Virus record (IMG/VR): IMGVR_UViG_3300044733_003944
Coordinates: 20,102 to 84,101 of that record
Strand: one strand, 5' to 3'
DNA length: 64,000 nucleotides
Source of the DNA: a virus
Under the pieces are notes generated by a model. The model worked only from the letters and a program-made list of their open reading frames with translations, was not told the origin of the DNA and did no database searches. The position numbers were made by a program, and so were the translations under genes. Below are positions 3,569 through 52,870 of the stretch, one piece after another (the first letter of the stretch is position 1; every line of letters starts with the position of its first letter).

Positions 3569-4060
3569 ATGAAAAAAATTGTATCTATTACTGAATCACA
3601 ACTAACCAATATAATTAAACAAGTTCTCAAAGAAAATGAAACAAAAGATAGTTTAATTGATATGATCAAAGAAGATGGGTGGAAAGAATCATCCGGAATG
3701 GTTGGGGGTTCAGATAACTTAAAAAAATTGTCTGGTATTGATACCCCAATGAAATACCTTAGTTTATTCAACGACTTAAATAGTATGACCGATGAATTAA
3801 GACCTACTTGGAAAATGTTTTTTTATCATGAAAATAAACCAACTATGATGTTAATTTCAAATAAAGAAGAAAACAAGGTCTATATGAATATCGGGTTTAT
3901 GGATCAATTTTTAAGGGCCTTTAATTTAGATCTTAATGAATCTAGAGAATATATTAAAGATTGGTTGTTAAACTCTTATGATTATGACGTAGATACTTCA
4001 AATATTATTATGAGAAGAGGTTACCCATTTAATAATTTTAGAAGTGAGAGTATGACATAA
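3569..4060 (+). CDS. Leader-bearing phage protein (class A leader)
   Basis: 163 aa. The N terminus 'SITESQLTNIIKQVLKE' is a class A leader: basic MKK start, ESxL, then an amphipathic helix ending in L-K-E. The rest has no recognised domain and looks like a small soluble alpha/beta protein. A TATTTATT element at 3545-3552 precedes the start. By analogy with T4 internal proteins, the leader may target the protein to the prohead and be cut after LKE; this is inference. Confidence 0.7.
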   Translation: MKKIVSITESQLTNIIKQVLKENETKDSLIDMIKEDGWKESSGMVGGSDNLKKLSGIDTPMKYLSLFNDLNSMTDELRPTWKMFFYHENKPTMMLISNKEENKVYMNIGFMDQFLRAFNLDLNESREYIKDWLLNSYDYDVDTSNIIMRRGYPFNNFRSESMT

Positions 4061-4109
4061 TAATATTTTTTTATTTAACTAATAATTTTTAATCCAAAAT
4101 AAATTATAT

Positions 4110-4138
4110 CCCCCATCTCTCAACAGTTGGGGTTTTTT
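4110..4138 (+). terminator. Rho-independent terminator
   Basis: CCCCA 4111-4115 pairs with TGGGG 4128-4132 and is followed by six T. Confidence 0.75.
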
Positions 4139-4161
4139 ATTTTCCATTATATTTATCTAAT

Positions 4162-4581
4162 ATGAAAATCATTATAACTGAAGATCAATACGGACAATTA
4201 ACTAACCTCGTTAAACGAGTGATTCGTGAAAATGACTCTATGTTAGAAAAAAACAAAAAGTTTTTAAAAAACAAGTTGGGTATTGATTTTACAAATGTCA
4301 TTCAACAAATAACCTCAACTTATGATATTCCAATGGAATTTGCTGGATATATTTCACCTGGATTGATTAATCGTTATTTAAACAAATATGGACCTATGTA
4401 TCTTTTTGAACTTGACGGGAAAAAATATCTTTATTTAGATGTGGGGGATCATGAGAAGTTTATTGATGAGAATGGAAATATATATATTGAAAATGAAATA
4501 CCCGAACAACTTGGAATCGCAATAATGGGTTTAAGATTCTCAGATATTATTGATCTGTATTTTAAAGAAGAGGATTTCTAA
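4162..4581 (+). CDS. Leader-bearing phage protein
   Basis: 139 aa. Starts MKIIITEDQYGQL and continues LTNLVKRVIREND, combining the 'MKIIITEDQY' type start with the class A helix and an I-R-E end near residue 23. The body is unrecognised, acidic and soluble, with no membrane segment. TATTTATC at 4150-4157 lies just upstream. Candidate packaged protein of unknown function. Confidence 0.7.
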   Translation: MKIIITEDQYGQLTNLVKRVIRENDSMLEKNKKFLKNKLGIDFTNVIQQITSTYDIPMEFAGYISPGLINRYLNKYGPMYLFELDGKKYLYLDVGDHEKFIDENGNIYIENEIPEQLGIAIMGLRFSDIIDLYFKEEDF

Positions 4582-4684
4582 AACAAGACCCCCCTTTTTA
4601 AAAAGAACTGAAATCTTAAAAAAAAAATTTTGAAAAAATTTCCCTTAATTTGATTAGTGGATTTATTTAAATTACATTTTTATT

Positions 4685-5269
4685 ATGAATCACAACTTGA
4701 ATTTTGAAATGAAACTTAGAGATGAGTATGCTACTCATGTGATGAGTCATACCTATAGTTCTTATTCTGAGTTTAAATTAATACAGGAGGAAGAAAAACT
4801 TAGATACCTTATCCATAGAAAATATCTTAAGTTGTTGGGTAAGTTTATTGAATCTACTTACCCTGGTTTGAAGTTTGATGTTTTTATTAGACACCGAGAT
4901 CCAAAGATTAAAAATCCTCAGTGGTATGGTCAAACCTATATGGAACTTAGAATCTATGATATAATTTCTTTACCCTCTTATGCTCCACAAACATTTTCTC
5001 AAGTGTATAAAACCCCACATTATAATGGGTATATCGGAGGTGAGGAAATATATAATGAAATTGAGAATTTTATTTCTGAACTAAATAAACATATTTTAAT
5101 CACTTTTAGACCTCTTATTTCCCCACATACACCCATTCATAATATTGATATGTTTGATCCTAAACCATTTGAATGTTGGGGGGAATATTTTGCTCGTGAA
5201 TACCATAGAGCCGCAATATCTTCTAGTTACCAAGACAATTGGATCCATCCTGATAGATTTGGTTTGTAG
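4685..5269 (+). CDS. Conserved-looking hypothetical protein
   Basis: 194 aa with many aromatic and His residues (for example 'IRHRDPKIKNPQWYGQ' and ECWGEYFAREYH). No domain recognised, no leader of the classes seen in neighbours, no signal peptide. Lies between two leader genes in the same direction. Upstream sequence is TTATTTAAA rather than the full TATTTATA element. Confidence 0.6.
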   Translation: MNHNLNFEMKLRDEYATHVMSHTYSSYSEFKLIQEEEKLRYLIHRKYLKLLGKFIESTYPGLKFDVFIRHRDPKIKNPQWYGQTYMELRIYDIISLPSYAPQTFSQVYKTPHYNGYIGGEEIYNEIENFISELNKHILITFRPLISPHTPIHNIDMFDPKPFECWGEYFAREYHRAAISSSYQDNWIHPDRFGL

Positions 5270-5284: not shown

Positions 5285-5734
5285 ATGAAAATAATCATCT
5301 CTAAAGATCAGTATAGAAGAGTTCTTTTAAAATTCCTTGATAGTTTTATTAAAGGTTTCGATGTGGATCCTTACGAAGAAGAAAGTTCGTATAGAAATGT
5401 TAAAACTTCTGATGGAGATGACTTTGCAACTCTTTGGCATGATGAGCCAATTACTAAGGGGTGTAAAAGAGAATTATCATTAGATAACCAATTTACTAAT
5501 GATTTTGAAAGTTTTATTCCCATTAATAGAAAAAAAGTTTTTTCAGAAGTAGTTCTTGAATATTTCACATCAAAAACGGGTATCAAATGTGATTGTGTTG
5601 AGTTTAGTTATTTTACAGGAAAATATAAAGAATTAGAAAGGTATGATGATGATTCAGATGAGGTAATCTCCTATACTGATAAAGAATTCGATCACTACCA
5701 TTATAAAAAACCTAAAAGATCTAAAAAACGATAA
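5285..5734 (+). CDS. Phage protein with MKIIISKDQY leader
   Basis: 149 aa. The N terminus MKIIISKDQYRRVLLKFL matches the leader start of the 4162 gene, but without an obvious [ILV]xE end. The body is acidic in the middle and ends in a very basic tail (KKPKRSKKR). TATTTATA at 5273-5280 is 4 nt from the ATG. Function unknown. Confidence 0.6.
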   Translation: MKIIISKDQYRRVLLKFLDSFIKGFDVDPYEEESSYRNVKTSDGDDFATLWHDEPITKGCKRELSLDNQFTNDFESFIPINRKKVFSEVVLEYFTSKTGIKCDCVEFSYFTGKYKELERYDDDSDEVISYTDKEFDHYHYKKPKRSKKR

Positions 5735-6792: not shown

Positions 6793-7461
6793 ATGAAACA
6801 TTTATTAAACGATTTATCTAACGAAGAAAAAAATAGAATTAGAGAACAATACGAAGGTAGTCTGTTAGTGAATACCTCAAGATTTAAAAAACTTTTGGAA
6901 TCTCACCTTGGTAATGTTAAACCATTACTAACCGAAAATCCAACAGGTGACACTGGAAATCAAGAAGTCGTTGGTGGAGGAGGTCAAGGCTCACCACAGG
7001 ATGTATATTCTGTAACCGCAAGAATCCAAAATCAGTGTAGACCCGAGGCAGTAACTGCCTATAAATCCGAAGCACAACAAGCACCTCAATTTGCAACAAC
7101 AAACAAAGCAGGTCTTCCAGTTAAAATTGATGAAAAAACAATTGAGTTTACAAAAAAATTATATGATGGTATGACATATAAAGGAAATATAAAATATAGA
7201 TATAATTGTGTAGATTTGGATAATTCAGCTACCGCAGTTGGGTTGAATGTTAATGCCGCCAAACCTAATGAATTTACCGCAGTTCCTGCTTGGGTTGGAA
7301 ATTATAAAACTTCGGTTATAACTCAGGCAAATCCTAAGGGATTTTTAAGATCTTTTTGCGCATATGCTCTTACTGATATACCAACAATAAATAATGTGAA
7401 TAAAAAGTTAGAATATTGTTGTAAGGATGGATCTGGAGCTCAATCAAGTGTTCCTTGTTAA
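6793..7461 (+). CDS. Leader-bearing protein (class B), Cys-containing C-terminal domain
   Basis: 222 aa. The leader 'MKHLLNDLSNEEKNRIREQY' is followed by a second helix, 'RFKKLLESHLGNVKPLLTEN', ending L-T-E near residue 53. After a Gly-rich linker comes a domain with paired cysteines (QNQCRPEAV, YNCVD, SFCAYA, YCCKDGS, VPC) that could form disulfides. TATTTATA at 6771-6778. The L-T-E site would release the Cys-rich domain if a gp21-like protease acts here. Confidence 0.7.
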   Translation: MKHLLNDLSNEEKNRIREQYEGSLLVNTSRFKKLLESHLGNVKPLLTENPTGDTGNQEVVGGGGQGSPQDVYSVTARIQNQCRPEAVTAYKSEAQQAPQFATTNKAGLPVKIDEKTIEFTKKLYDGMTYKGNIKYRYNCVDLDNSATAVGLNVNAAKPNEFTAVPAWVGNYKTSVITQANPKGFLRSFCAYALTDIPTINNVNKKLEYCCKDGSGAQSSVPC

Positions 7462-7490: not shown

Positions 7491-7841
7491 ATGTATCTCA
7501 ACAAAAGAAAAACACAAAACATACAAAAATCTAATCTTATCTTAGAACAGAGATATTTGAAGGAACAAGCCCCGCCGCCACCTGCACCTCCTGCCGCTCC
7601 GGCACCTGCCGCTCCAGCGGATTCACCTACCACACCATCTAGTAGTTCAACAAGAACTCCAATTAAACCTATGGTAAAAGCATCAGGACCAAAATCAATT
7701 AAAGGTAATGATGGTAAAGTTATTGAATGGGAAAAACAGACTGAAGATCAGAAAAAAAATGTTGCAACTAAATGTGGTCACAAATCCGTGGACGAATATG
7801 AAAAGTCTGAATGGAAATGTGCGGTCCAAGAGGTTAAATAA
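7491..7841 (+). CDS. Leader-bearing protein (class D) with Ala/Pro linker
   Basis: 116 aa from ATG 7491; an upstream in-frame ATG at 7455 overlaps the previous gene and is less likely because the leader motif 'NIQKSNLILEQRYLKEQ' begins right after 7491. The same motif (IQEANLMLENRRLVE) occurs in the 46095 gene. It is followed by a Pro/Ala-rich linker (residues 27-50) and a small C-terminal domain with two Cys. Candidate packaged protein. Confidence 0.65.
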   Translation: MYLNKRKTQNIQKSNLILEQRYLKEQAPPPPAPPAAPAPAAPADSPTTPSSSSTRTPIKPMVKASGPKSIKGNDGKVIEWEKQTEDQKKNVATKCGHKSVDEYEKSEWKCAVQEVK

Positions 7842-7898: not shown

Positions 7899-8807
7899 AT
7901 GAAAAAGAATTTATTTGTATTATCGGAAAATGAAAAAAATCGGATTTTAAACATGCACAAATCCGCAACTAAACAAAATTATGTTTTTGAACAAGCCGCA
8001 CCGGTTGTAGATCCCAATAAACCAAATGTAGATGCTGTTACAGGAAACCAAGGAACTCCTGTTGTAGGAGCGGTTACACCTCAATCCTCAGTGTCTAATA
8101 TCCCAACACAAACAGCACCAGCGGCAGGAGCGACTCCAGCGGCAGGAGCGACCCCAGCGGCAGGAGCAACACCCGATAAAAAAACAATAATGTTACATGA
8201 TCTTGATTATGATTATAAAAAAGAAGGTGACAAATACTTCTTTAAAATTAAGGCGGACGCTGTATCACCAAATTTACAAAAACTTTTCAAACAGGGTAAG
8301 TTCAAAGATTTTACAGAGGCTAAACCAGGAACTAAATCATTTGACGCCATCAGCAAACTTAATTGGGCTAAAGGAGATAAACTTGATGTAAAACCGGCGT
8401 CCTCAATGAAAGTATCGTCACCTAGTTTAACCGCATCTCCACAAGGAGGTGCTGCACCCGCAGCCGGATCAAACTCAACAACATTACAAGACCCTGTTGG
8501 AGAAGCAAAAAAACTTATGCCAAATATTAGTTCATTAGATCCTGCGAAACAAAAAGAAGTTGCCACATGGTCAAAATCACCGGCAGGAGAGTATATTCTA
8601 AAACTTCCGCCAGATCAGAGAGAAAAGGCTTTAGATAATTTAGAAAAGAAAAGTGGTGATCAAACAACAAAGGCATTAAAATCAGATATTAGAACCGCAC
8701 TTGGAATGGCTGCCGACACGGCATTTCAAAGATTAGGTCAAGGAATAAAAGGAGCGGTTGCTGGATTCAAAGCAGGAGCTCAAGGACAACAACCACCAAC
8801 AGCCTAA
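7899..8807 (+). CDS. Leader-bearing protein (class B) with PAAGAT repeats
   Basis: 302 aa. The leader 'VLSENEKNRILNMHKSAT' continues to QNYVFEQ, with V-F-E near residue 32. It then has an Ala/Pro/Thr linker with three PAAGAT units (encoded around 8121-8170), a central globular segment, and a C-terminal Lys/Ala-rich helical region. TATTTATA at 7879-7886. No enzyme motif. Extended linkers of this type are typical of virion or ejected proteins. Confidence 0.7.
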   Translation: MKKNLFVLSENEKNRILNMHKSATKQNYVFEQAAPVVDPNKPNVDAVTGNQGTPVVGAVTPQSSVSNIPTQTAPAAGATPAAGATPAAGATPDKKTIMLHDLDYDYKKEGDKYFFKIKADAVSPNLQKLFKQGKFKDFTEAKPGTKSFDAISKLNWAKGDKLDVKPASSMKVSSPSLTASPQGGAAPAAGSNSTTLQDPVGEAKKLMPNISSLDPAKQKEVATWSKSPAGEYILKLPPDQREKALDNLEKKSGDQTTKALKSDIRTALGMAADTAFQRLGQGIKGAVAGFKAGAQGQQPPTA

Positions 8808-8814: not shown

Positions 8815-9297
8815 ATGAAAAGACTTATAATTACAGAAGACGAAAAAAAAAGAATCAAACTTCTTTATGAGCAATCAACTTTTGTGAAAGATATGGCAAA
8901 AACTTTTAACTCATCTGAGGAATCTTTTTTGCCGTTGGATTGGTCGACTTTGGAAAAAACCGATCCTAAAAGGGCTGAGTATGGTCAAAATTTATCTAAA
9001 GTAAAAACCGCGTTTCAAAACTTCACAAATAAGGCGTGGAATGGTAAAACTGATATTTCAAAAACTATATCATATTTACAAAACTATAATATCGATAATA
9101 AATACCAAAAACGATGGTTAGATTCCGCAGTTAAAACTTTACAACATTTACAAAACCAAATAAAAAGTAGCGATAACACCCAAAGTAAAACTAATACTAC
9201 CACAACAAATACCACAACTAATTCTACAAACGTAACAACACCATCGTTTTCGGATTGGAGATCAAAATTAAATCAACAGTTTGGCATAAATTCATAA
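8815..9297 (+). CDS. Leader-bearing protein (class B), Thr/Asn-rich tail
   Basis: 160 aa, 7 nt after the previous stop. The leader 'MKRLIITEDEKKRIKLLYEQ' ends in L-Y-E. A helical body is followed by a low-complexity Thr/Asn linker (residues about 120-140) and a final short motif, FSDWRSKLNQQFG. Function unknown. Confidence 0.7.
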   Translation: MKRLIITEDEKKRIKLLYEQSTFVKDMAKTFNSSEESFLPLDWSTLEKTDPKRAEYGQNLSKVKTAFQNFTNKAWNGKTDISKTISYLQNYNIDNKYQKRWLDSAVKTLQHLQNQIKSSDNTQSKTNTTTTNTTTNSTNVTTPSFSDWRSKLNQQFGINS

Positions 9298-9301: not shown

Positions 9302-9778
9302 ATGTTTACCATCAAAAAAAGAAACTTATTAAATCTCATAAGTGAATCTTCTAATTACGTTTCCGACATTTACACAGAAGAAAAATTAAGACGAGTTAAT
9401 AAGATAATTAAAGACATGGTTTTTACTTTCGAAGGTCAACTTTCAATAGGTCTCGATTGGAAAGCAAAATTTGATTATCAGTTTCAAATCAAAGGGGTTA
9501 GACAAATGATCTCAGTTGGTGAATTATATGATTATTTAATGGTTGATGTTACAATTATTGATGGAGATAAAATGTTTTTGGTTTCTGCTAAATTGATGGG
9601 GTCTTCAATTACTAATGAATATCGACTCAAAAATAATTTATCAACTAGTATATCCGAAGAACTCCAATACTTTTTTGGTTCAGATTATGTTAGAGTAACA
9701 TTAGATAAAGACAAAAGTTCAATAAAACTAAGTGACGAACTAAAGGAAAAAATAGATAACTTTATTTTTGAAAGATAA
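9302..9778 (+). CDS. Phage protein with possible leader
   Basis: 158 aa, 4 nt after the preceding gene. The N terminus MFTIKKRNLLNLISES is basic-hydrophobic and contains I-S-E, a weak form of the shared leader. The body is mixed alpha/beta without recognised domain. Co-transcribed with the upstream genes by spacing. Confidence 0.6.
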   Translation: MFTIKKRNLLNLISESSNYVSDIYTEEKLRRVNKIIKDMVFTFEGQLSIGLDWKAKFDYQFQIKGVRQMISVGELYDYLMVDVTIIDGDKMFLVSAKLMGSSITNEYRLKNNLSTSISEELQYFFGSDYVRVTLDKDKSSIKLSDELKEKIDNFIFER

Positions 9779-9801: not shown

Positions 9802-10146
9802 ATGAAAAATAATTTAACAGAATCAGACATCAATAGAATCGTATTTGATGTTATAAATGAATCTGAAGAAGTAAAAGAAGGTTGGTTTAGTAATTTGTTT
9901 AAAGATAAATATACAATTTACTCGGAGGAGCTTGAAGAAATAATGCAAGATTTAATCAAAAACGTTTACTCCGATCGAGATATTATTTCCAACATCAAAG
10001 AACTATATTCCAAAATTCAAAGTTCTGATATGGATAGAAGAGACAAGAGAGAATTACTCGAAATAATGTATGAACTTTATCAGTTGATAAATGAAACTCA
10101 AACAAAGGTAAATCGATATATTCATAGATTACAACGATTAAGATAA
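9802..10146 (+). CDS. Leader-bearing helical protein (class A)
   Basis: 114 aa. The leader 'MKNNLTESDINRIVFDVINE' ends I-N-E at residue 20. The rest is predicted almost fully helical and charged, likely coiled coil (ELYSKIQSSDMDRRDKREL). TATTTATT at 9791-9798 is 3 nt before the ATG. Confidence 0.7.
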   Translation: MKNNLTESDINRIVFDVINESEEVKEGWFSNLFKDKYTIYSEELEEIMQDLIKNVYSDRDIISNIKELYSKIQSSDMDRRDKRELLEIMYELYQLINETQTKVNRYIHRLQRLR

Positions 10147-10968: not shown

Positions 10969-11310
10969 ATGAAAATCAACGAAGAATTAAACCAAATCAA
11001 ATATCTTTTAGAGTATAAAAGAGGACAAGAAATTAACGAAATGGTTTTTTCTAATTTACCCGGTGTTCAGCCTGATAAAATGGATTATAGAAGACCAATA
11101 CCTGATCCTGATATTATACCTGATTGTTTTACTCAAATGTTAAAATCAGATTTAAACATGGTTTCTTTTGATAAAAACACGTTAAAAGATGAATCACAAA
11201 AAAGAGTTAATGGTGTTGATATGATTTTTAATCCTGATAGTCCATCTGACGAATTGGGTATTACAATAATAAAAGATGGAAAACCTTTTTGTTTTGTAAA
11301 AAAATTTTAA
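10969..11310 (+). CDS. Leader-bearing protein (class C)
   Basis: 113 aa from ATG 10969; a GTG at 10954 would add five residues and overlap the previous stop, but the class C leader 'MKINEELNQIKYLLEYK' begins at 10969, just after TATTTATT 10958-10965. The leader shares the pattern of MxLxEQLxRIKxLxxE with the 22434 and 26645 genes. Body unrecognised, with two Cys. Confidence 0.65.
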   Translation: MKINEELNQIKYLLEYKRGQEINEMVFSNLPGVQPDKMDYRRPIPDPDIIPDCFTQMLKSDLNMVSFDKNTLKDESQKRVNGVDMIFNPDSPSDELGITIIKDGKPFCFVKKF

Positions 11311-11362: not shown

Positions 11363-11875
11363 ATGGGAAGAAAAATTAGACTTACAGAATCTGAATTTCA
11401 TTCTTTAGTAAGAAGACTTGTTCGTGAGGCTGAAGAAGAAATGATGTCAATTACAATGGATGATGAAGAATCCGAAGGAATGTCAAAAGAAGACACCGTT
11501 CATGCGGTTGCTGACTTCTTTAAAAGAAAATTAAGAAGATTAGATAGTGACGAAATCGAAGAACTTGAGGATATGGTTGTTAATTCTGAAACAGAAGATC
11601 TAACTGAAATGTTTTTAAGAGAAGACATTTCTGATAGAAAAAAATCTTTTAAAGAAAAGGCAATGATTCGTGGTGGAATTGGTATGATGGGAGCAGGAAT
11701 ACTTGGAATGATTAGTCAAGCAATGGGTTATACTGATGCTGGAGACCTTATGATTGCGGTTCACGATTACGTTGACAAAATGGGTGGTGGTCCTGTGAGC
11801 ACCGCAGTATTAATTGCTGGTTTAGTTATGGCACTTAAAGGTGCTGCTGACAGAGGCCTTAGAACAGGAAGATAA
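11363..11875 (+). CDS. Leader-bearing protein (class A) with two hydrophobic segments
   Basis: 170 aa. The leader 'MGRKIRLTESEFHSLVRRLV' is followed by R-E-A. An acidic helical middle precedes two Gly/Met-rich hydrophobic helices (residues about 108-126 and 147-163), able to insert in or disturb membrane. TATTTATA at 11340-11347. Membrane-active internal or ejection protein is a reasonable guess. Confidence 0.65.
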   Translation: MGRKIRLTESEFHSLVRRLVREAEEEMMSITMDDEESEGMSKEDTVHAVADFFKRKLRRLDSDEIEELEDMVVNSETEDLTEMFLREDISDRKKSFKEKAMIRGGIGMMGAGILGMISQAMGYTDAGDLMIAVHDYVDKMGGGPVSTAVLIAGLVMALKGAADRGLRTGR

Positions 11876-12296: not shown

Positions 12297-12722
12297 TTAA
12301 TTTACAGAAACAAGTTCTAAATCAAAAATTAATTTTTTTCCTGCCAATGGGTGATTAGCGTCCAAAACAACATTAGTTTCGTTTACTTCTTTAACCATAA
12401 CATTCATAGGTCCTTGTTGTGTCATAGTTTGTAACATTTGGCCTACCTCAACATTTTCAGGAACTCTGTCTTTTGGAACCTCAACAACTAAATCTTCTCT
12501 AAGATCCCCATATGCTTCAGTATGATCCATCTCAATAGTTTTTTTATCACCTTCTTTCATACCCAAAAGACCTTTTTCAAAACCAGGAATTAAAGAACCT
12601 TGACCCAAAGTTGCCGATAATGGTTCACGACCTTCCATTAATGAAGTGTCAAAAACAGATCCATCTTCTAATTTTCCCGTGTAATTAACAGTCACGGTGC
12701 TGTTTACCTCAACAATTTTCAT
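12297..12722 (-). CDS. FKBP-type peptidyl-prolyl cis-trans isomerase (SlyD-like)
   Basis: 141 aa. Starts with the canonical FKBP strand (VTVNYTGKLEDGSVFDTS), then 'LIPGFEKGLLGMKEGDKK' and ETEAYG-like TEAYGD, with an insert-in-flap chaperone domain (residues about 70-120) as in SlyD. It lacks the His-rich metal tail of E. coli SlyD. It catalyses prolyl isomerisation and assists folding in the cytoplasm. An unusual phage-borne folding factor, consistent with DnaK and Clp elsewhere in this genome. Confidence 0.9.
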   Translation of the reverse strand: MKIVEVNSTVTVNYTGKLEDGSVFDTSLMEGREPLSATLGQGSLIPGFEKGLLGMKEGDKKTIEMDHTEAYGDLREDLVVEVPKDRVPENVEVGQMLQTMTQQGPMNVMVKEVNETNVVLDANHPLAGKKLIFDLELVSVN

Positions 12723-13040: not shown

Positions 13041-15491
13041 ATGAAACACATTTTATTTTTATTTTTATTCCCCCTTTTTATTTATTCTCAGTATTGTCCT
13101 TATATTGGACCTGACTTAACTTTACCTTGTGGTGTAAACTCAACAACGTTAACTGCTGATCCATCACAATGTGGTCAAGGAGCCCTTCCTCAAGGAACCT
13201 CTAATTACGGAGTTACTAACATACCTTATGTTGTACAAGTTAATAACGGAACATTGGTACAACTTAGTGATGATTCACAATCTAATACGTTTAATATTGG
13301 GTTTACTTTTTGTTTTTACGGTTCTAATTATACACAGTTTCGTATAGGATCAAATGGATGGATTTCGTTGGGTGCTGGAGTTCAACCAGCCACTTTTGCC
13401 ACTCAAGCAATACCTTCAGCAAATGCCGCAGTTCCCAAAAATTGTATTATGGGTCCGTGGCAAGATTGGAATCCAAGTTTAGGGGGTCAAATTAGATATC
13501 AAGTACAAGGAACTGCCCCTTGTCGTAAATTAGTAGTCAGTTGGATAGGTGTTCCTATGTTTTCTTGTACAAACCTTCAGGGAACTTTTCATATTATTCT
13601 TTACGAATCAACTAACGTGATTGAAAATCATATTGCAAATAAACCCGCATGTAATCAATGGGCAGGAGGAACCGCAGTTCAGGGTATTCACAACCTTTTA
13701 GGAAATGCGGCAGTTCCTGTTGCAGGTAGAAACTCAACACAATGGACCACTGTTAACAATGCTTATCGTTGGACGCCAAGTGGAGGTGTAATTCAGCCAA
13801 CATGGACTTGGTATCAGGTTGGAAACCCTAACCCAATTGGTACGGGATTGAGTATTACTGTTACTCCTCCAATCGGAGGAGCTTATTATACCTGCCAACC
13901 AGTGTTCCCTTCTTGTAATGCTGGTTGGTCCTCTTGTAACGCAGGAGTTGGACAAGGTCCTGATACAATTTTAGTAACACCAACACCAAATTTACCACCT
14001 CCCACAATTACTCCAACAGATCCTTTGTGTAATAATGGTTGTAATGGATCAATAGTTGTAACTCCTGTTGGCGGATTAGGTCCTTATATTATCAATTGGT
14101 CTAATGGGTCAAACACTCTAACATTAAATAATTTGTGTTCAGGGACATATAATTTCTCTTTGACCGATGCAAATGGGTGTGTATATAACGGAACTTCAAC
14201 TTTATTAAACCCACCACCATTACAATTACCAACAGTAACGTCAACTAACCCAACTTGTTTTGGTTATTGTGACGGATCATCAATTGTTAATCCTATAGAT
14301 GGACTTGCACCATACACATATCTTTGGAATGATGGTCAAACCACTCAAACGGCAACTAATTTATGTTCGGGAAACTATTCTGTGACTGTTACAGACGCAA
14401 ATAACTGTCCTGTAACTCAAACCACAACGTTAGTTGATCCTCCACTTGTAACAATTAACCCGATTACAGGATCAGACACAGTTTGTTTTAACTCTACAGG
14501 TAATTTATACAACGTCTCAAGTGTTTTTCCTAACCTAAACTACGTATGGACTAACACGATGGGAAATATCTCGTCAGGACAAGGGACAAATCAAATAAAT
14601 TTGGACGTAACTGGTGTGAATGGGGGTCTATATTCCAATACTTTATCAGTTATTGGTGTAAATCAAGTTGGATGTCAGTCACAACCTCAAACTTTTTCTA
14701 TTGTTGTATTGAATATACTACCTGTAATTACACCTATCGGTCCGTTTTGTGAATATGACAACTGTATTAACTTAATTGCAACCCCACCTAATGGAATTTT
14801 CAGTGGATTAAACGTTTGGGGTAATCAATATTGTCCTGACAATGGGTTTATTGGGTTAGATTTTGTAAATTATATGTATTCTCAGTCAGGATGTTGGTTT
14901 GATACGTCAATTAACGTTCAAGTTTATCCACGACCTAACATTTTACCTGTGACAAATGGTGTTGTTGATGAGAATTTAGAGTATCATCAAATATGTGAGG
15001 GTGATACTGTATCAGATGTGTTTAGTTTATCATCAGTTAGTGGTGGATATAACGAATGGTATGTGTTTGGGGATACAATTACTAACAATACGTTAAATAT
15101 AACGTGGGATATGGACGGTATATTCACTTTTCAGGGAGTAAGATGGGACAATGGGTGTGTTTCTAACCCCCAATCCTTCACCATAACCTTAGAATTGTGT
15201 CCAAATGAGATATTTTACATCCCAAATGCCTTTACACCCGATGGTGATGAAAGAAATAACATATTAAAACCAATAATCACCTCAGGAGTGGACATTTTTA
15301 ACTACTCTTTTGTGGTTTTTAATAGGTGGGGACAGATTGTATGGGAATCTTTTAATACCAATGTGGGTTGGGATGGGACATATAACAATATTCCTTGTCA
15401 AGATGGGGTTTATACGTGGAAATTAAAATTTAAAAGTCCCAAAACCGATGAAATCAAAGAATTTTACGGTAGTTTTACGCTTATTAAGTAA
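13041..15491 (+). CDS. Secreted adhesin with SprB-type repeats and T9SS type-B (gliding motility) C-terminal domain
   Basis: 816 aa. Signal peptide at residues 1-17 (MKHILFLFLFPLFIYS). An N-terminal jelly-roll-like region (about 20-290) contains paired cysteines. Two to three SprB-like repeats (about 320-470; pattern NPTCFGYCDGS...GLAPYTYLWNDG) follow, then PKD/Ig-like modules, then a final 90-residue domain starting 'IPNAFTPDGDERNN' and containing FNRWGQIVWES and DGVYTWKLKF. This is the gliding motility-associated C-terminal domain family, the type-B type IX secretion signal of Bacteroidota. In a phage it could be exported by the host T9SS or be built into the virion as a host-range module. 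Its start lies behind TATTTAAA. Confidence 0.88.
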   Translation: MKHILFLFLFPLFIYSQYCPYIGPDLTLPCGVNSTTLTADPSQCGQGALPQGTSNYGVTNIPYVVQVNNGTLVQLSDDSQSNTFNIGFTFCFYGSNYTQFRIGSNGWISLGAGVQPATFATQAIPSANAAVPKNCIMGPWQDWNPSLGGQIRYQVQGTAPCRKLVVSWIGVPMFSCTNLQGTFHIILYESTNVIENHIANKPACNQWAGGTAVQGIHNLLGNAAVPVAGRNSTQWTTVNNAYRWTPSGGVIQPTWTWYQVGNPNPIGTGLSITVTPPIGGAYYTCQPVFPSCNAGWSSCNAGVGQGPDTILVTPTPNLPPPTITPTDPLCNNGCNGSIVVTPVGGLGPYIINWSNGSNTLTLNNLCSGTYNFSLTDANGCVYNGTSTLLNPPPLQLPTVTSTNPTCFGYCDGSSIVNPIDGLAPYTYLWNDGQTTQTATNLCSGNYSVTVTDANNCPVTQTTTLVDPPLVTINPITGSDTVCFNSTGNLYNVSSVFPNLNYVWTNTMGNISSGQGTNQINLDVTGVNGGLYSNTLSVIGVNQVGCQSQPQTFSIVVLNILPVITPIGPFCEYDNCINLIATPPNGIFSGLNVWGNQYCPDNGFIGLDFVNYMYSQSGCWFDTSINVQVYPRPNILPVTNGVVDENLEYHQICEGDTVSDVFSLSSVSGGYNEWYVFGDTITNNTLNITWDMDGIFTFQGVRWDNGCVSNPQSFTITLELCPNEIFYIPNAFTPDGDERNNILKPIITSGVDIFNYSFVVFNRWGQIVWESFNTNVGWDGTYNNIPCQDGVYTWKLKFKSPKTDEIKEFYGSFTLIK

Positions 15492-16884: not shown

Positions 16885-17412
16885 TTAGATTCCTTTAATA
16901 AGGTTTATTGATTGTTTTAGGTATTCTTTAGCTCTTGGGGACGGAGTATATTCATCATCCTTAGTTTGAAGGTTTAAAACCCTTTCAATGTCCTTAACTA
17001 ACTCAGTTCCGTGTTCATTTTCTTTATATAACTCGATGATCTTATCCATGGCTTTATTGCATTCACCTGTAGTCTCGTCATAATAGTTTTTATTCCTAAA
17101 CTTATTCAAATGATTCATCATTTCATATGCCAAATGTGTTCCACCGTCTTTAATGTCTTTAAACAAACGGATATTATTCAAAATCCCTAAAGTATCAACC
17201 ATAGAGTTAACCCCTGTAATTCTTTTGGTAATCCCTGGTGTGTATTTATCAAATTCACCCGCTCTCCCGACTATTTCGTCTAGAGGCATAACATTTTCAG
17301 GAATACACTTAGGTTTTTCCTTTTTATTTTTTTTTCCTTCCATTTCGTTTTCTAAAAGAACTTTTCTAATGACTCTATTTAGGTCACGGTTATTAAATTG
17401 ATTTCGTTTCAT
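16885..17412 (-). CDS. Leader-bearing protein (class A), minus strand
   Basis: 175 aa. The leader 'FNNRDLNRVIRKVLLENE' matches class A with L-L-E at residues 19-21 and is followed by a Lys-rich linker and helical body (MNHLNKFRNKNYYDETTGEC). It has TATTTATT on its own strand at 17450-17457, within a divergent promoter shared with the 17467 gene. This shows that both leader and promoter motif travel with the gene regardless of strand. Confidence 0.65.
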   Translation of the reverse strand: MKRNQFNNRDLNRVIRKVLLENEMEGKKNKKEKPKCIPENVMPLDEIVGRAGEFDKYTPGITKRITGVNSMVDTLGILNNIRLFKDIKDGGTHLAYEMMNHLNKFRNKNYYDETTGECNKAMDKIIELYKENEHGTELVKDIERVLNLQTKDDEYTPSPRAKEYLKQSINLIKGI

Positions 17413-34578: not shown

Positions 34579-34581
34579 CAA

Positions 34582-35601: not shown

Positions 35602-35613
35602 TAAAAAAAGGTT

Positions 35614-36152: not shown

Positions 36153-36154
36153 AT

Positions 36155-36226
36155 GGTCCATTGGTGTAGTGGCTAACATTCATCCCTGTCACGGATGAGC
36201 CGCGAGTTCGATTCTCGCATGGACCG
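36155..36226 (+). tRNA. tRNA-Asp(GTC), second copy
   Basis: Acceptor GGTCCAT/ATGGACC, anticodon loop CTGTCAC, T-loop TTCGATT. Last tRNA of the array, directly upstream of the cassette region. Confidence 0.88.
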
Positions 36227-36256
36227 CTAAAATTATTAAAATTAAATCAGAATAAT

Positions 36257-41337: not shown

Positions 41338-42072
41338 ATGGTTTCAAGATCAGAATGCAGTAGTTCAAACCCATGTTCAAAATTTGGATCCACCGATAAT
41401 GGGTGTCTTCAAAATTTAAAAAAAGGTGAGGTTGGTTCAAGCAAATATGAATTGGCTTCTGAGGCTGCAGACGCACTCGAGATAATGTATGAAGACATGC
41501 CCGAAGACGTTCAAAAAGATTTAAAAATCTCAGATTCTTATCGTCCATTAAAAATCCAATGTAATATTTTCAATTTTGACACTTATGAAGAAACAGGAAA
41601 GAGAATTAAAATTGGGACTTCTAATGTTGCTGTGGCGGCTCCTGGAACGTCAAATCATGGTTGGGGTAGAGCATTAGACTTGTCGTCAAGAAAGGCTCAA
41701 CAGTGGATCAAAGACAATGGATATAAGTATGGTTGGTGTTGGGGTGAGGTTACATCGGAACCATGGCATTTTACTTACTGCGGACCAGGACCAAATAGAT
41801 CATCAAGATGTGATAGTTTTTGTAAGGGTAAAATGGAAATATCATCAACCGATACTTCCATTGATGACGAAGAAGAAGAAGGATCAATTGAAAAGGAAAC
41901 CACAACTGACAAAAAAACCAAATCTAACCAATCTTCATCAGCTTTGGGACCTATTGGTGATTTTTTAAATTTTCTTGGTATTGTAGGTGAGATGAAAGAG
42001 TCGATTGAAGAAAATGAAAATTTGAATGAAGAATTAAATAGAATTCACGATATTTTTAAAAAAATTCTTTAA
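41338..42072 (+). CDS. M15-family peptidase endolysin with helical C-terminal tail
   Basis: 244 aa. The Zn-peptidase core has 'GTSNHGWGRALDLS' (His and Asp ligands) and SEPWHFTYC (His ligand, Glu), as in VanY/L-Ala-D-Glu carboxypeptidases, so it cleaves peptidoglycan stem peptides. Multiple Cys near the N terminus. An acidic Ser/Thr linker leads to a C-terminal helix 'ENLNEELNRIHDIFKKIL' that looks like the class C leader found at other N termini. TATTTATA 41311-41318. Confidence 0.85.
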   Translation: MVSRSECSSSNPCSKFGSTDNGCLQNLKKGEVGSSKYELASEAADALEIMYEDMPEDVQKDLKISDSYRPLKIQCNIFNFDTYEETGKRIKIGTSNVAVAAPGTSNHGWGRALDLSSRKAQQWIKDNGYKYGWCWGEVTSEPWHFTYCGPGPNRSSRCDSFCKGKMEISSTDTSIDDEEEEGSIEKETTTDKKTKSNQSSSALGPIGDFLNFLGIVGEMKESIEENENLNEELNRIHDIFKKIL

Positions 42073-46094: not shown

Positions 46095-46592
46095 ATGAAT
46101 AGAAGTTTTAGTAAAATTAGACACATCCAAGAAGCAAACTTGATGTTGGAAAACAGAAGATTAGTGGAAAATAATAGATCATTTTTGACTGAACAAACTA
46201 TCGCAAACAACATAGCACCTTTGTTTGTGAATGAGTTTAATAGAGTTATGGCCGCATATAAAAAAGGAGACGCCAAAATACCAACTTATACAGCAAAATA
46301 TGAAAAAACTGATGACTATAAAGGAAAAATTGGTATTTATGCTGACGGCAAACTACAACTTACGTCTTTAAAAGATTTTGGAGTTGCGGTAACCGCACCA
46401 TTTTCAACAGGAACTAAAGATGAATATGGAACAGATATTGGTGTGTTAGATAAATTGATGTTATTTAGCACTGGATTACAAAGTCAAATAGATGGAATTC
46501 AAAATATTGATAATACTGTTAAATCATATTTGAAGACTGCGGTTAGAAGTGGTATAGACACAACTAAACTTAATTTCACACAAAAAAAATAA
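46095..46592 (+). CDS. Leader-bearing protein (class D)
   Basis: 165 aa. 'KIRHIQEANLMLENRRLVEN' matches the class D leader of the 7491 gene, with L-V-E and, further on, SFLTEQ (L-T-E near residue 33). The body is small soluble alpha/beta. TATTTATC 46074-46081. Confidence 0.68.
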   Translation: MNRSFSKIRHIQEANLMLENRRLVENNRSFLTEQTIANNIAPLFVNEFNRVMAAYKKGDAKIPTYTAKYEKTDDYKGKIGIYADGKLQLTSLKDFGVAVTAPFSTGTKDEYGTDIGVLDKLMLFSTGLQSQIDGIQNIDNTVKSYLKTAVRSGIDTTKLNFTQKK

Positions 46593-47152: not shown

Positions 47153-47656
47153 ATGAAAAAATTTTTAATATCAGAATCAGAAAAACAACGAATTTTGGGA
47201 ATGCACAAAAATGCAATTAGAAAAGAATATTTGACGGAGGATGATGTGGCTGCAAAACTTTCAGGTTTAATGAACAATATAGTTTCGGCTGCGAATACTG
47301 CAATAAACACGTATAATGGAGCTAATAATTCTAAAGTTCCAAATGTTACAATTACATCTCAAAATGACCCTAGTGAAATTAATTCTTTATTATATTCATT
47401 CAATATGAGTAATCAGTCGATTGGTGAGGTTAGTGATAAATACACTATTGGTAATTTATATCCCGCTGGTTGGCCCGAATTTGAAAAGAAAATTTATAAG
47501 TCGTTTAAACCTAGTGTAAATACGTTTTTATCAGATAAATTGGCAGCTAATGGGGTTCCAAAAGGAAATCAAACTGATTGGCAAAATAACGTCACTGGTG
47601 CTATATTTAAAGTCCTAAATAATTTTCAAGGTTTTAATAAACCTACTCAAAAATAA
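47153..47656 (+). CDS. Leader-bearing protein (class B)
   Basis: 167 aa. Leader 'LISESEKQRILGMHKNAIR' continues to KEYLTED, with L-T-E near residue 27, very close in form to the 7899 leader. The body is Asn/Ser-rich. No domain known. Confidence 0.7.
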   Translation: MKKFLISESEKQRILGMHKNAIRKEYLTEDDVAAKLSGLMNNIVSAANTAINTYNGANNSKVPNVTITSQNDPSEINSLLYSFNMSNQSIGEVSDKYTIGNLYPAGWPEFEKKIYKSFKPSVNTFLSDKLAANGVPKGNQTDWQNNVTGAIFKVLNNFQGFNKPTQK

Positions 47657-48271: not shown

Positions 48272-50359
48272 TTATTCAGTTTTTTTTCTTCCCCTTCTTT
48301 TTGGTTTTTCTTCTTTATTTGTCACAATAATTTCGTCGTTTTCAACAACCAACATATATTCCTCGTTCTCCTCAATTTCAGACATCAATATTTTTTCTGA
48401 AATCAAATCTTCAATTTTGTCTTGAATCGCTCGTTTTATAGGTCTTGCCCCAAATGTTTCATCAAATCCGACCTTTGATATAAAGTCAATTAAATCTTGG
48501 TTATATGAAAAGATATAATGTTTTTCTAGAACTCTACTTAACAATTTATCAACCTCAAGTTTTGTGATCTGATCAATATGACTTTTTTCTAAACTATTAA
48601 ATATAATTACATCATCAATTCTATTCAAAAATTCAGGAGCAAAAAACTTCTTTAATTCTTTCTTTAATACTTCTTGTTTTTCTTCTTCTAGAACAACATC
48701 ACTTTTTGTGGTTTTAAACCCGACACCTGTTCCGAAGTCTTGAAGTTTTTTAACCCCAATGTTAGAAGTCATAATAATCAAACAATTTTTGAAGTTGATT
48801 TTACGACCCAAAGAATCTGTAATGTGACCATCATCCAATAATTGAAGAAGAGTTGAAAATATGTCTTTGTGTGCCTTTTCGATCTCATCAAATAATACCA
48901 CCGAATATGGTTTGTTTTTAACTTGTTCTGTCAATTGACCACCCTCATCATGTCCAACATATCCCGGAGGAGATCCAATAAGACGAGATATTGTATGTTT
49001 TTCTTGATATTCACTCATATCAACTCTAATCATATTATCAGGACTTCCAAAGATTTCTTTTGCCAATTGTTTTGCCAAATAAGTTTTTCCAACTCCGGTG
49101 GAACCAAGAAAAATAAATGATCCGATTGGTTTATTTGGATCTTTGATCCCCATACGATTTCTTCTGATTGCCTTTGAAATTTTATTGACCGCCTCTTCTT
49201 GACCGATAACTTTGGAATTCAAATTTGAATTCAAACTAATCAAACTATTTCTTTCATCGACGTTGATATTTGAGATTGGAATTTTAGTCATATTTGACAC
49301 GACTTCATAAATCAATTCTTCAGGGATATTTCTTTTACTACTTCTTAAGTGTTCCTCAAATTTCTTTTTTTCTTCTTCTAATTTGGACAACACACTTCTT
49401 TCACGATCTCGTAATTCGGCCGCTTGTTCGTAGTTTTGTTTTTTAATTACATTAAATTTTTCTTGTTTGATTTGGTTTGCTTGTTCTTTCAAATCTTCAA
49501 TTTCCTTTGGTAATTTAATGTCAATTTGCATTCTTGCTCCAACTTCATCTAAAATATCAAAGGCCTTATCAGGAAACTCACGATCTGTGATATATCGGTC
49601 TGCTAACTCAACAAATATTTTTAATGTCTCATCGTCGTATGAAACTTTATGGTGATCCTCATATTTTAATTTACTCAACTTTAAAATCTCCAACGTTTCT
49701 TCTTTTGTTGCAGGATCTACGATGACTTTTTGAAACCTTCTTTCTAATGCTCCATCTTTTTCAAAGTTTGTTCGATATTCGTCTAAGGTTGTTGCTCCAA
49801 TACATTGGATTTCACCTCTTGATAGTGCCGGTTTAAATATGTTTGAAGCGTCTAACGATCCTGAACTATTCCCTGCTCCAACTATTGTGTGAATTTCATC
49901 AATAAATAAAATAATATTTGGTGAGTTTTGTAATTCCTCAATAATAACTTTCATTCTTTCTTCAAACTGACCACGGTATTTTGTTCCTGCAACCAAAGAA
50001 TTCATATCTAAAGATACGATTCTTTTATCCATAAGGTTTTTTGGACATTCTCCATCGTGAATCATCATCGCAAGACCCTCAACGATCGCAGTTTTACCCG
50101 CTCCTGGTTCTCCAATAATAATCGGGTTATTTTTTTTCCTACGAGAAAGAATCTGAGCAATTCTCAATATTTCCTTCTTTCTTCCAATTACAGGATCAAG
50201 TTTCCCGTCTTGTGCTAACTTATTTAAATCTTTACTGAAATTATCCAAAACAGGTGTTGTGCTGTCGGGTTTCTTTTTTGATTTGTCGTTTCCTTCATCC
50301 ATAAATTCTAACATAACTTTTTTTTTCAAATTATAGAAATAACTTTTTATAAAGTCCAT
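48272..50359 (-). CDS. ClpC/ClpE-like AAA+ unfoldase without N-domain
   Basis: 695 aa from ATG 50359; the frame runs further upstream but that part is a low-quality extension across the divergent promoter region. Two AAA+ modules: Walker A '[13 protein letters not shown]' with ILFIDEIHT, then '[18 protein letters not shown]' with [12 protein letters not shown] short middle domain with a UVR-like [13 protein letters not shown] motif points to ClpC/ClpE rather than ClpB. The usual Clp N-domain is absent, so adaptor use may differ. The very basic C-terminal tail ([11 protein letters not shown]) is odd. Would unfold proteins for host ClpP or act alone. Confidence 0.88.
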
Positions 50360-50489
50360 AACTGAACACTTGTCAGGTTTTTTATTTGTTATATGACAAA
50401 TTGTCAGTATATTTATTTTTTCTAAAAATGGCACACTATTGGTGTTCAATGGCGAAAAAATAAACTTAAAAACAAAATGTATTAAAAAA
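50360..50489. promoter_or_regulatory. Divergent Clp/DnaK control region
   Basis: Contains TTGTCA/TGACAA inverted segments (about 50368-50405) and TATTTATT at 50410-50417 toward dnaK. Joint control of both chaperone genes is likely. Confidence 0.4.
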
Positions 50490-52343
50490 ATGGGAAAAAT
50501 TATTGGGATAGATTTAGGAACTACTAATTCTTGCGTGGCAGTAATGGAAGGTCGCGAACCTGTGGTAATCACAAACAGCGAAGGTAAAAGGACAACACCA
50601 TCTGTTGTTGGATTTATTAAAGATGGGGAAAGAAAGATTGGAGATCCTGCAAAACGTCAGGCCGTAACAAATCCAAATAAAACGATCTACTCAATTAAAA
50701 GATTTATGGGTAGTAAGTTTGAGGAAACTAAAAGTGAAATATCAAAAGTTCCTTATGAAATTATAAATGAAAATCAAACACCAAAAGTTAAAATTGATGA
50801 TAGAAGTTTTTCTCCACAAGAAATTTCAGCGGCAATTCTTCAAAAAATGAAACAAACCGCCGAAGACTACTTGGGTGAAAAGGTTACTGATGCTGTAATT
50901 ACGGTTCCTGCTTACTTTAACGACGCACAAAGACAAGCGACAAAAGAGGCCGGTGAAATTGCAGGTCTAAATGTTAAAAGAATTATTAATGAACCAACGG
51001 CAGCGGCTTTGGCGTATGGTTTGGATAAAATGTCAAGAGACATGAAAATTGTGGTATTTGACTGCGGTGGTGGAACACATGACGTATCTGTATTGGAACT
51101 TGGTGATGGTGTATTTGAAGTATTATCTACAGATGGTGATACTCATTTAGGTGGTGATGACTTCGATCAAGTGATTATTGATTTTTTAGCGTCTGAATTT
51201 AAACAAAATACAGGAATTGACGCAACAAAAGATCCAATGGCTCTTCAAAGACTTAAAGAAGCCGGTGAAAAGGCCAAAATCGAATTATCTTCATCTCCAC
51301 AAACAGAGGTTAATCTTCCATATTTATCGGCAGACTCATCAGGTCCTAAACACCTTGTTGTGACAATTACAAAATCAAAATTCGATCAACTAACAGAAGA
51401 CTTGGTAAAAAGAACAATTAAACCGTGTGAATCTGCTTTAAAAAATGCTGGTTTAAAACCAAGTGATATTGATGAGATTATTTTGGTGGGTGGATCAACA
51501 CGAATTCCCGCCATTCAAGAGGCCGTTAAAAAATTCTTCGGTAAAGATCCGTCAAAAGGGGTGAATCCTGATGAAGTAGTTGCTTTAGGTGCTGCAATTC
51601 AAGGTGGTGTTTTGGGTGGTGATGTTACTGATGTATTATTATTAGATGTTACACCACTTTCTTTAGGTATTGAAACTATGGGGGGAGTATTCACCAAACT
51701 AATTAGTGCAAATACAACAATCCCAACAAAAAAATCTGAAGTATTTTCAACCGCATCCGACAATCAACCTACAGTTGAAATTCATGTTCTTCAGGGTGAA
51801 AGATCAATGGCGAAGGATAATAAAACAATTGGAAAGTTTAACTTGGATGGTATTCCACCGGCAAGAAGGGGAACTCCACAGATTGAGGTTATTTTTGATA
51901 TTGATGCTAATGGTATTATTAATGTTTCGGCCGTAGATAAGGCAACAAACAAACAACAATCAATCAGAATCGAATCGTCATCAGGTTTATCAAAAGAAGA
52001 AATTCAAAGAATGAAAGAAGAAGCCGAAATGAACGCTGAAGCCGACAAAAAATTAAAAGAAGATGCTGACACATTAAATTCTGCGGATTCATTAATTTTC
52101 CAAGTTGAAAAATCTTTAACAGATTTGGAAGATAAAATTACTGAAGATGAGAAACAAAACATAACTTCCAAAATTGATAAGTTAAAGGTTGCACATAGTA
52201 ATAAAAATATAGATGACGTGAAAAAATTTACAGATGAACTCAATTCTGAATTTCAATCAATTAGTCAAAAATTATACAGCATGTCAAATGAAACAAGTTC
52301 CGATGAAGAAGTGACAAATGTGGAGTTTGAGGAAGTAAAATAA
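50490..52343 (+). CDS. dnaK: DnaK (Hsp70) chaperone
   Basis: 617 aa from ATG 50490 ([18 protein letters not shown]); the in-frame upstream extension from 50439 is not Hsp70-like. Full nucleotide-binding domain with phosphate-1 (GTTNSC), phosphate-2 ([13 protein letters not shown], where cellular DnaK usually has F at the H position) and adenosine motif '[18 protein letters not shown]'. Substrate-binding domain with [12 protein letters not shown] and an acidic tail ending [12 protein letters not shown]. No DnaJ or GrpE is seen in the window, so it probably uses host co-chaperones or assists head or tail assembly. Confidence 0.95.
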
Positions 52344-52360
52344 AAGTAATTTTTACCAAA

Positions 52361-52390
52361 ATCACCGAGAAATCGGTGATTTTTTTTTTT
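52361..52390 (+). terminator. Terminator after dnaK
   Basis: ATCACCGA-GAAA-TCGGTGAT with ten T. Confidence 0.9.
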
Positions 52391-52414
52391 AAGTATATTT
52401 ATTAAATAAAAAGT

Positions 52415-52870
52415 ATGAAAAGAATTATAAAATTAACAGAATCAGATTTAGCTCGTATCGTAAGAAGAGTTATTAGTGAGCAACAAGCTTATACTATTAT
52501 ACCAATAACCATAGACATACCAGCGCAAAAAGACGAAGAGGGTGTTTTAAAAGCCATTCCAAATGCTAGATTAACATTTCAAATTATCAACCAAAAAGGG
52601 ACAGATGGGAGTATGACTGATGACCTTGACACAGTTTCGCAAGTTCATTGGGATAGTGGCACTGCAAAAGCAGTGTCAAAAAAAGATGATAAGGGAAACA
52701 TTATTGGATCTTTTGTGCCTGATGAATCGGGATTAAAAGTATTATCAAGATTAGTTGGTAAAAAAGATATGACCGGTACTTCAGGTATTAAAGTAACAAT
52801 ACAACCACAAAATCGACTCATTCCTGCACCAGCAACGGTTAGGTTTAAAGAGCGACCAATTCAAAAATAA
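52415..52870 (+). CDS. Leader-bearing protein (class A)
   Basis: 151 aa. Class A leader 'KLTESDLARIVRRVISEQ' with I-S-E at residue 22. The body is beta-rich (ARLTFQIINQKGTDGSMTDD), perhaps an Ig-like or decoration fold. TATTTATT 52396-52403. Monocistronic between two terminators. Confidence 0.7.
   Translation: MKRIIKLTESDLARIVRRVISEQQAYTIIPITIDIPAQKDEEGVLKAIPNARLTFQIINQKGTDGSMTDDLDTVSQVHWDSGTAKAVSKKDDKGNIIGSFVPDESGLKVLSRLVGKKDMTGTSGIKVTIQPQNRLIPAPATVRFKERPIQK

Follow-up and report, generated by a model that had tools for sequence, protein, structure and literature searches.

Leader-bearing genes of the window

The stretch of DNA analyzed here (64,000 bases, referred to as the window) is the right-hand 64 kb of the 84,101-base IMG/VR virus record IMGVR_UViG_3300044733_003944. 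Its genes include about 20 that encode otherwise unrelated proteins starting with one of a few recurring N-terminal sequences, here called leaders, which probably serve as cleavable capsid-targeting propeptides of a T4-type phage from a family of lake phages. Such leaders had been pointed out in an earlier note on this DNA. All 21 proteins named there are present, except that the start given for one class C protein, 26645, is an internal Met of an open reading frame (ORF) that starts at 26615. A longer record, G001 (140,128 bases), holds the entire window with 100% identity over all 64,000 bases and extends 38 kb beyond it. The leader proteins are as follows (lengths in amino acids, aa; the arrow marks a candidate cleavage site).

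3569-4060, plus strand: class A leader, 163 aa; candidate site LKE22↓N
4162-4581, plus strand: short-form leader (MKIIITE) merged with a class A leader, 139 aa; candidate sites ITE7↓D and IRE23↓N
5285-5734, plus strand: short-form leader (MKIIISKDQY), 149 aa
6074-6760, plus strand: class A leader, 228 aa; candidate site INE22↓G
6793-7461, plus strand: class B leader, 222 aa; candidate sites LLE36↓S and LTE48↓N
7491-7841, plus strand: class D leader, 116 aa; candidate site LKE25↓Q, then a proline-rich linker
7899-8807, plus strand: class B leader, 302 aa; candidate site YVFE31↓Q
8815-9297, plus strand: class B leader, 160 aa; candidate site LYE19↓Q
9302-9778, plus strand: possible additional leader (LLNLISE15↓S), absent from the list in the earlier note and from the matrix matches
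9802-10146, plus strand: class A leader, 114 aa; candidate site INE20↓S
10969-11310, plus strand: class C leader, 113 aa; candidate site INE24↓M
11363-11875, plus strand: class A leader, 170 aa; candidate site VRE22↓A
16885-17412, minus strand: class A leader, 175 aa; Glu21 invariant in chosen orthologs
17467-17838, plus strand: short class A/E leader, 123 aa; candidate site LIE14↓S
18480-19100, minus strand: short-form leader (MDIILTE), 206 aa
19213-19827, plus strand: class B leader, 204 aa
22434-23726, plus strand: class C leader, 430 aa; candidate sites LNE21↓T and LNE38↓A
23741-25504, plus strand: possible additional leader (MDISKKLTQILLE13↓Q), 587 aa; missed by the matrices
26645-27115, plus strand: class C leader on a GNAT acetyltransferase-like protein (GNAT assigned to this member by reading); candidate site MYE16↓Q
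30782-31171, plus strand: class A leader, 129 aa; candidate site IKE22↓N
41338-42072, plus strand: VanY protein (D-Ala-D-Ala carboxypeptidase); its C-terminus has a class-C-like stretch
46095-46592, plus strand: class D leader, 165 aa; candidate sites LVE25↓N and LTE33↓Q
47153-47656, plus strand: class B leader, 167 aa; candidate site YLTE29↓D
52415-52870, plus strand: class A leader, 151 aa; candidate site ISE22↓Q

The protein encoded at 6793-7461 also contains a stretch, RFKKLLESHLGNVKPLLTE, that is similar to the N-termini of three proteins of the related record G019. The latter form a small family with the pattern FRFKQL(L/I)ESxxGxVKPL, which is present too in the start of the window protein. 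A further leader form, M(N/R)LxxxI(R/K)xIL(K/R)E↓E, is found in the window's own record, upstream of the window.

Recurrence of the leaders

The recurrence of the leaders was assessed by a motif-free comparison of the N-terminal 30-mers of non-homologous protein pairs (genes of at least 80 aa, ungapped BLOSUM62 score of at least 45). In G001 (168 genes), 25 of the 14,019 N-terminal pairs reach this score, while internal, C-terminal, and shuffled segments give 0 or 1. Both partners are matrix-found leaders (see below) in 22 of these 25 pairs, and one other is the class D pair encoded at 7491 and 46095; a crude test found no pair of signal peptides among them. The same comparison yielded 111 of 17,945 pairs in G019 (first 190 of the 232 genes; 103 of the pairs leader-leader) and 48 of 17,362 in another relative, G027 (43 leader-leader), with 0 internal and 1 shuffled pair in each case.

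Iterated position-specific matrices, seeded from the window's own record and made for all classes but D, detected four leader classes on 147 of the 985 predicted proteins of seven related phage records (35 of 187 in G001, 50 of 256 in G019, 46 of 209 in G027, 4 of 94 in G034, 5 of 81 in G025, 5 of 82 in G026, and 2 of 76 in G009). The chance expectation is ∼5, or ∼1.2 per class, as taken from the internal match rate. The matrix result is circular for the window itself, because the seeds came from there; the pairwise comparison and the relatives are free of this circularity. The G026 matches duplicate those of G027, and four of the 147 matches were judged false. These four are a short ORF, a glycosyltransferase-like protein, the prohead protease itself, whose relatives begin differently, and a dUTPase-like protein, the leader being absent from relatives of the latter; all were dropped before the domain scan. 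With the threshold raised, N-terminal matches are seen in 145 proteins, versus 25 internal and 3 C-terminal match rows; per 100,000 positions, this amounts to 818 N-terminal matches (proteins counted) and 12 internal and 23 C-terminal ones (rows counted). The pairwise and matrix results agree that a common N-terminus is shared by otherwise unrelated proteins, as the earlier note had proposed, on a scale far above chance and larger than noted there.

A search of IMG/VR with the class A pattern gave at least 144 matches in at least 120 stretches. Each of the 144 listed matches is preceded by a Met at a distance of 4 to 13 residues (exactly 7 in 126 of them), and 110 of the 125 start-aligned matches have distinct downstream sequences. 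The search pattern itself fixed many of the leader residues; Leu7, which it did not fix, is nevertheless kept in 110 of 110. No match to a shorter form of the pattern was found in 22 records of at least 60 kb drawn by random 16-mer. The class E pattern was found in 77 stretches, several of them on contigs that also carry class A. A whole-protein search with the product of 52415-52870, whose search patterns include one taken from its leader, returned 36 loci; in 27 of them, the match covers no more than residues 1-22 to 1-30.

The Glu residue at the end of the leader

In class E, Glu occupies the expected place in 141 of 146 distinct N-termini, the search having fixed nothing after the helix. 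In class A, it is found in 40 of 41 N-termini, with Ile, Val, or Leu two residues before it in 39; every locus fetched with a Glu-fixing pattern was left out of this comparison, and 3 of the 41 sequences are this phage's own. The background frequency of Glu is 8 to 9% (7.9% for class A). In class B, an [ILVM]-x-Glu triplet follows a linker in 13 of 19 proteins, compared with a mean of 2.4 and a maximum of 8 in 2000 shuffles.

The same site is retained in two families of orthologs that have divergent leaders. All distinct N-termini, 51 in the first family and 34 in the second, have the triplet ahead of the conserved cargo, compared with at most 39 and 30 in shuffles; the second family is represented by the 50 of its 80 loci that fitted the core pattern, the other 30 having been dropped. 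Ile8 and Glu14 are the invariant columns before residue 23 in the first family (27 rows). In the second, which includes the window protein encoded at 16885-17412, no column before residue 36 other than Glu21 is invariant across the 36 orthologs chosen. The AlphaFold2 model of this window protein (predicted local distance difference test score [pLDDT], 82.5) contains a leader helix at residues 8-24 and low-confidence residues 23-30, followed by a separate globular part. Foldseek found no reliable structural relative of the model; the best match was the P1 endolysin (E value, 0.016; template-modeling score, 0.19).

Head genes, prohead protease, and capsid protein

The window's record ends just past the portal gene, and the head genes that it holds are the following.

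57010-58788, plus strand: T4-type large terminase
59763-62531, plus strand: T4-type portal protein (gp20) with an HNH intein; the protease and capsid genes come after the end of the record
62568-63281, plus strand: 237-aa protein directly 3' of the portal, in the position of T4 gp67/gp68, with the start ..KYLTE15↓S

Relatives found with the terminase on viral contigs number at least 597, and 80 of them were retained. The closest terminase matches among 50,697 phage records are just ∼27% identical.

The G001 genes beyond the window include those for a homing endonuclease, an S77 protease of 240 aa, an acidic scaffold-like protein of 494 aa (net charge, -72), and a gp23-like capsid protein of 643 aa. 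The protease matches T4 gp21 (PDB 5jbl) with an E value of 2.6e-14 and PHROG 207 with an E value of 4.5e-43. It is separated from the portal by three genes on the same strand. Homologues of gp17, gp20, gp21, and gp23 lie together in a T4-type head cluster. The flanking genome, in which the earlier note had proposed to look for a gp21-like prohead protease, thus encodes one, and the objection that the full genome lacks it fails because the window's record simply ends before the protease gene. The S77 domain (PF03420) was detected in 35 of the 37 records searched, namely 35 of 36 terminase relatives (out of the 80 kept loci) plus the window's record. The latter's 84,101 bases, which end after the portal, gave no PF03420 match in a search that had no positive control; in the other record with no match, G021, the portal match is 0.45 kb from the contig end. 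Among 30 leader-bearing records of at least 60 kb (the contigs of this size within 80 of the at least 120 listed class A stretches), 21 have both the S77 protease and the T4-type portal and 9 have neither; all 21 portal-bearing records encode S77. A search for phrog_207 in the nine protease-less records and G021, again with no positive control, gave no match.

The capsid protein carries a matching site. The capsid proteins of 51 relatives have 29 distinct N-termini with ∼60 near-invariant residues, which in 27 are followed by LINE, then by Ala (26 sequences) or Ser (1 sequence), and by a linker of variable length; the remaining two N-termini are cut short. In T4, the gp23 propeptide comprises 65 residues (PMC5694885), gp21 cleaves after L/I-X-E (PMC9026906), and the respective sequences are GSFLTE↓AE at residue 65 of gp23 and MAKINELLRE↓S at the start of gp24.

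The homing endonuclease gene is located just before the protease gene, at G001:37569-38246. One large record, G055 (268,739 bases), contains two S77 protease and two T4-type portal matches, so that it either is chimeric or has a second head cluster.

Exchange of leaders and leaders at internal positions

Leaders are exchanged between homologous cargo proteins. Within a single genome, homologous cargo (46% identity over 114 aa) follows a class B leader in one protein and a class A leader in the other. Class E and class A leaders are found on cargo that is 88% identical, and the short form and class E on homologous cargo with 44% identity over 116 aa. In one homologous pair, the leaders differ and both end in LKE↓SGIR.

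Seven proteins of G019, G027, and G025 contain a strong leader at an internal position, at the apparent junction of two cargo domains (for example, G019 131610-132440 and G027 31491-32174). Such proteins look like fused cargo genes that keep the second tag and may be cargo polyproteins. Two more internal matches look like misplaced gene starts, and the others are weaker. There are also three C-terminal matches, including the VanY protein of the window; T4 Alt is likewise processed at its C-terminus (PMC9026906).

Cargo proteins

The domain scan covered 133 of the 147 leader proteins, leaving out 4 doubtful ones, 5 of G026, and 5 that run across tile edges. At an E value of 0.001, 14 Pfam families were recognized: VanY, peptidoglycan binding, and DUF6576 (2 proteins each), and, in single members, DUF2237, extracytoplasmic function (ECF) sigma factor models, GNAT models, HD, ART-PolyVal, and UPF0122; families were assigned to particular members by reading the sequences. 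Matches to 23 PHROG families are mostly to unknowns, with names that include endolysin, sigma factor, acetyltransferase, transcriptional regulator, ferredoxin, and tRNA nucleotidyltransferase. No DNA replication or nucleotide synthesis enzyme appears in the Pfam and PHROG lists of the 133 proteins, the dUTPase-like match having been dropped earlier as a false leader. Part of the cargo (the ADP-ribosyltransferase of polyvalent proteins, ECF sigma factor, GNAT, VanY, and peptidoglycan-binding proteins) fits what could be expected of injected effectors.

Two proteins of the relatives may be singled out. G027 43754 (L105:3754-4332) is an ECF-type sigma factor with the short-form leader MKIIITE↓S, possibly a virion-borne transcription factor; its relative in G019 has no leader. 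G019 128623 (L099:8623-9108), an ART-PolyVal-like ADP-ribosyltransferase with a class E leader, parallels T4 Alt.

Probable capsid targeting and its alternatives

The leaders are probably cleavable N-terminal capsid-targeting propeptides, by which a T4-type phage would load dozens of cargo proteins into its head for ejection. That they are removable propeptides is well supported by a near-invariant Glu at P1 that was not forced by the searches, Ile, Leu, or Val at P3, the variable linker, the matching site in the capsid protein, leader swapping, and the internal leaders. The other half of the proposal in the earlier note, targeting and packaging, we infer from sequence, as we do docking in the core, cleavage, and injection. 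In this scheme, a short N-terminal helix would dock each protein in the prohead core during formation of the shell; the gp21-like S77 protease would cut after [I/L/V]-x-Glu, releasing the mature cargo inside the head; and this cargo would be ejected together with the DNA into the host bacterium. Leader families A, B, C, and E and the short form would serve dozens of unrelated, exchangeable cargoes, some of which seem to be tandem fusions that have a leader where the parts meet.

If so, a motif search alone would list the injected protein arsenal of a phage group that is frequent in viral metagenomes, the proteins of this arsenal being otherwise nearly all of unknown function, and which phage proteins enter the cell first would become a sequence query. 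The leaders would also be new tags, transferable to other proteins that are to be packed into phage heads, and the handful of internal proteins in T4 would be a small case of a far larger loading strategy.

Several results weigh against this assignment. The earlier note had each leader ending in [ILVM]-x-Glu; the triplet is found within the first 50 residues of 19 of the 21 window proteins and is absent from those of 5285 and 19213. In class C, the downstream site is present in 4 of 7 proteins (shuffle mean, 1.2; maximum, 6) and is thus not above all shuffles. The same class is nearly neutral, with a mean net charge of +0.08, so simple charge-driven docking to the acidic scaffold-like protein was rejected as a general rule. 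The association with the protease is not decisive: S77 is found in 8 of 22 random records of at least 60 kb versus 21 of 30 leader records, and at 100 kb or more in 5 of 9 versus 16 of 19, and part of this association is because these phages are T4-type. The majority of the cargo proteins have no domain recognizable in Pfam or PHROGs. Finally, the leader matrices gave 0 matches in the T4 pieces scanned, whose 123 genes include those of IPI-IPIII and exclude alt, gp67/68, and gp21. With no sequence relation found, the leaders can be taken to work like the T4 signals, not as demonstrated members of that group by descent.

The prohead protease could instead cut the leaders for the assembly of structural parts of the head (core, vertex, or neck) and not for the loading of injected effectors. 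T4 gp22, gp24, and gp67 have such N-termini too, and two conserved leader proteins adjoin gp23 in the head-gene region (G001 30779 and 31740; the AlphaFold2 model for the former family was poor, with a pLDDT of 50.7, and was left unused). However, most leader genes of G001, G019, and G027 are found in an island distant from the head genes, where they make up as many as 10 of 17 genes per 10-kb bin, and the leader proteins include enzyme domains, so this explanation is unlikely.

Less likely still, the leaders could direct proteins elsewhere, to the membrane or a phage compartment, or act as a chaperone-binding tag for the phage DnaK and Clp ATPase. The basic character of class A leaders (mean net charge, +1.9 in 22 residues versus +0.7 in non-leader proteins) would suit such a role, and the phage does encode a Clp-type ATPase and, by reading, DnaK. 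However, such a signal would leave unexplained why a Glu at one set position is nearly invariant, why the capsid protein has a matching site, and why leaders occur at internal junctions.

Duplication of gene cassettes, with 5' ends spread by recombination and no function as protein, is very improbable: the leader genes are clustered and the third codon positions inside the class A leader are 0.62 identical, which may mean some recent spread, but second positions are 0.88 identical, synonymous codons vary at conserved residues, nucleotide identity is only 0.39 over the 60 bases upstream and 0.32 over the 90 bases 3' of the leader, and several unrelated leader families stand side by side, with the similarity ending at the Glu.

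Comparison with known systems

The capsid-targeting propeptides proposed here most closely recall the capsid-targeting sequences of T4 (IPI, IPII, IPIII, and Alt, processed by gp21), in which a short N-terminal stretch ending in [LI]xE is shared by unrelated proteins, the S77 protease is encoded in the head cluster, and the cargo includes enzymes such as ADP-ribosyltransferase (PMC9026906). In contrast to T4, there are 35 candidate proteins in one record and several unrelated leader families, and leaders also occur within fused proteins and, in a few cases, at the C-terminus. In the giant phages phiKZ, 201phi2-1, and SPN3US, many head proteins are cut after xxE by a gp21 relative, with 19 processed head proteins in 201phi2-1 and nine substrates in SPN3US (PMC9026906, PMC10052503). 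The SPN3US propeptides are mostly long (111 to 254 residues in six of eight N-terminal ones), the phiKZ motif is S/A-x-E, and a leader shared by several proteins is not described in the available portions of these two sources. Here, the candidate sites are I/L/V-x-Glu, and the leaders of class A, class E, and the two ortholog families end at about residues 13 to 22. In phage P1, the first 30 residues of DarB send a reporter into the capsid; however, the Dar proteins form a single system of six, and the source touches on a possible consensus among their N-termini (PMC9024508).

The cultured Flavobacterium phage vB_FspM_immuto_3-5A, grown in the laboratory on Flavobacterium sp. LMO8, similarly has a T4-type head, an annotated prohead protease, and a capsid protein with the site QIVSE↓AN. 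Nine of its proteins fall into three leader-like groups of its own, such as (D/N)L(K/R)(K/S)FL(V/T)EN(K/R)LT in four; by their coordinates, the nine correspond to immuto35A_3, _42, _175, _176, _178, _187, _190, _193, and _194. One carries the annotation cob(I)alamin adenosyltransferase, and the other eight are annotated as hypothetical. These leader sequences differ from those described above (0 matrix matches in 126 genes of two pieces), and far fewer proteins carry them. In the motif-free comparison, the two pieces gave 11 of 5,564 N-terminal pairs at the same score, with 0 in the controls, although some of the clusters are ordinary signal peptides or tail-fiber starts. Three pieces of huge phages, pooled, gave 22 of 11,159 pairs, and only LR756508, a 484-kb phage, forms clusters; the recurrence was not seen in the Mel-JY01 and T4 pieces. 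In LR756508, 14 proteins within 50 kb start with K/L/R/I-E-rich sequences that resemble each other (for example, MKLTERKLRNLVKEVLKES); some of these may not be leaders, and two smaller clusters resemble ordinary paralogues.

Separate tag-like families in immuto and the 484-kb uncultured phage would fit a wider reading, which is possible but tentative: large T4-type phages may run a general protein-loading code, each lineage with its own interchangeable cleavable tags on dozens of effectors, among them an injected sigma factor, an ADP-ribosyltransferase, and protease-cut tandem polyproteins. The different tag classes may set the place or the order of ejection.

No cultured phage with these leader classes was found, the matrix scan having covered part of each cultured genome. 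The profile search across phage proteomes suggested in the earlier note gave matches in related records and none in the pieces of cultured phages scanned. Among 50,697 phage records, the 23-residue class A consensus had no tblastn match (a weak test with so short a query), three conserved leader proteins had no match, and a fourth had partial matches in six records. A literature search, which most subscription journals and bioRxiv lay outside, returned no paper recognizable as describing these leaders or holding the motif strings in the text available, which is no proof of novelty.

Host and other features of the phage

The 816-aa protein encoded at 13041-15491 combines SprB repeats, a PKD-like domain, and a CHU_C type IX secretion signal and appears to be a phage gene product for secretion to the host surface. 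Given its SprB repeats and CHU_C signal, the host most likely belongs to Bacteroidota. A search of 84,980 bacterial and archaeal genomes with the class A pattern gave a single match, on a contig of a Bacteroidota metagenome-assembled genome.

The window contains 25 tRNA genes within 26328-36227, one of them with an unresolved anticodon. A set of chaperones is encoded at 48272-52343 and 12297-12722, comprising a Clp-type ATPase and, as assigned by reading, DnaK and an FKBP-like isomerase. The Clp region can be aligned to all seven other relatives compared, and the DnaK region to G009 only.

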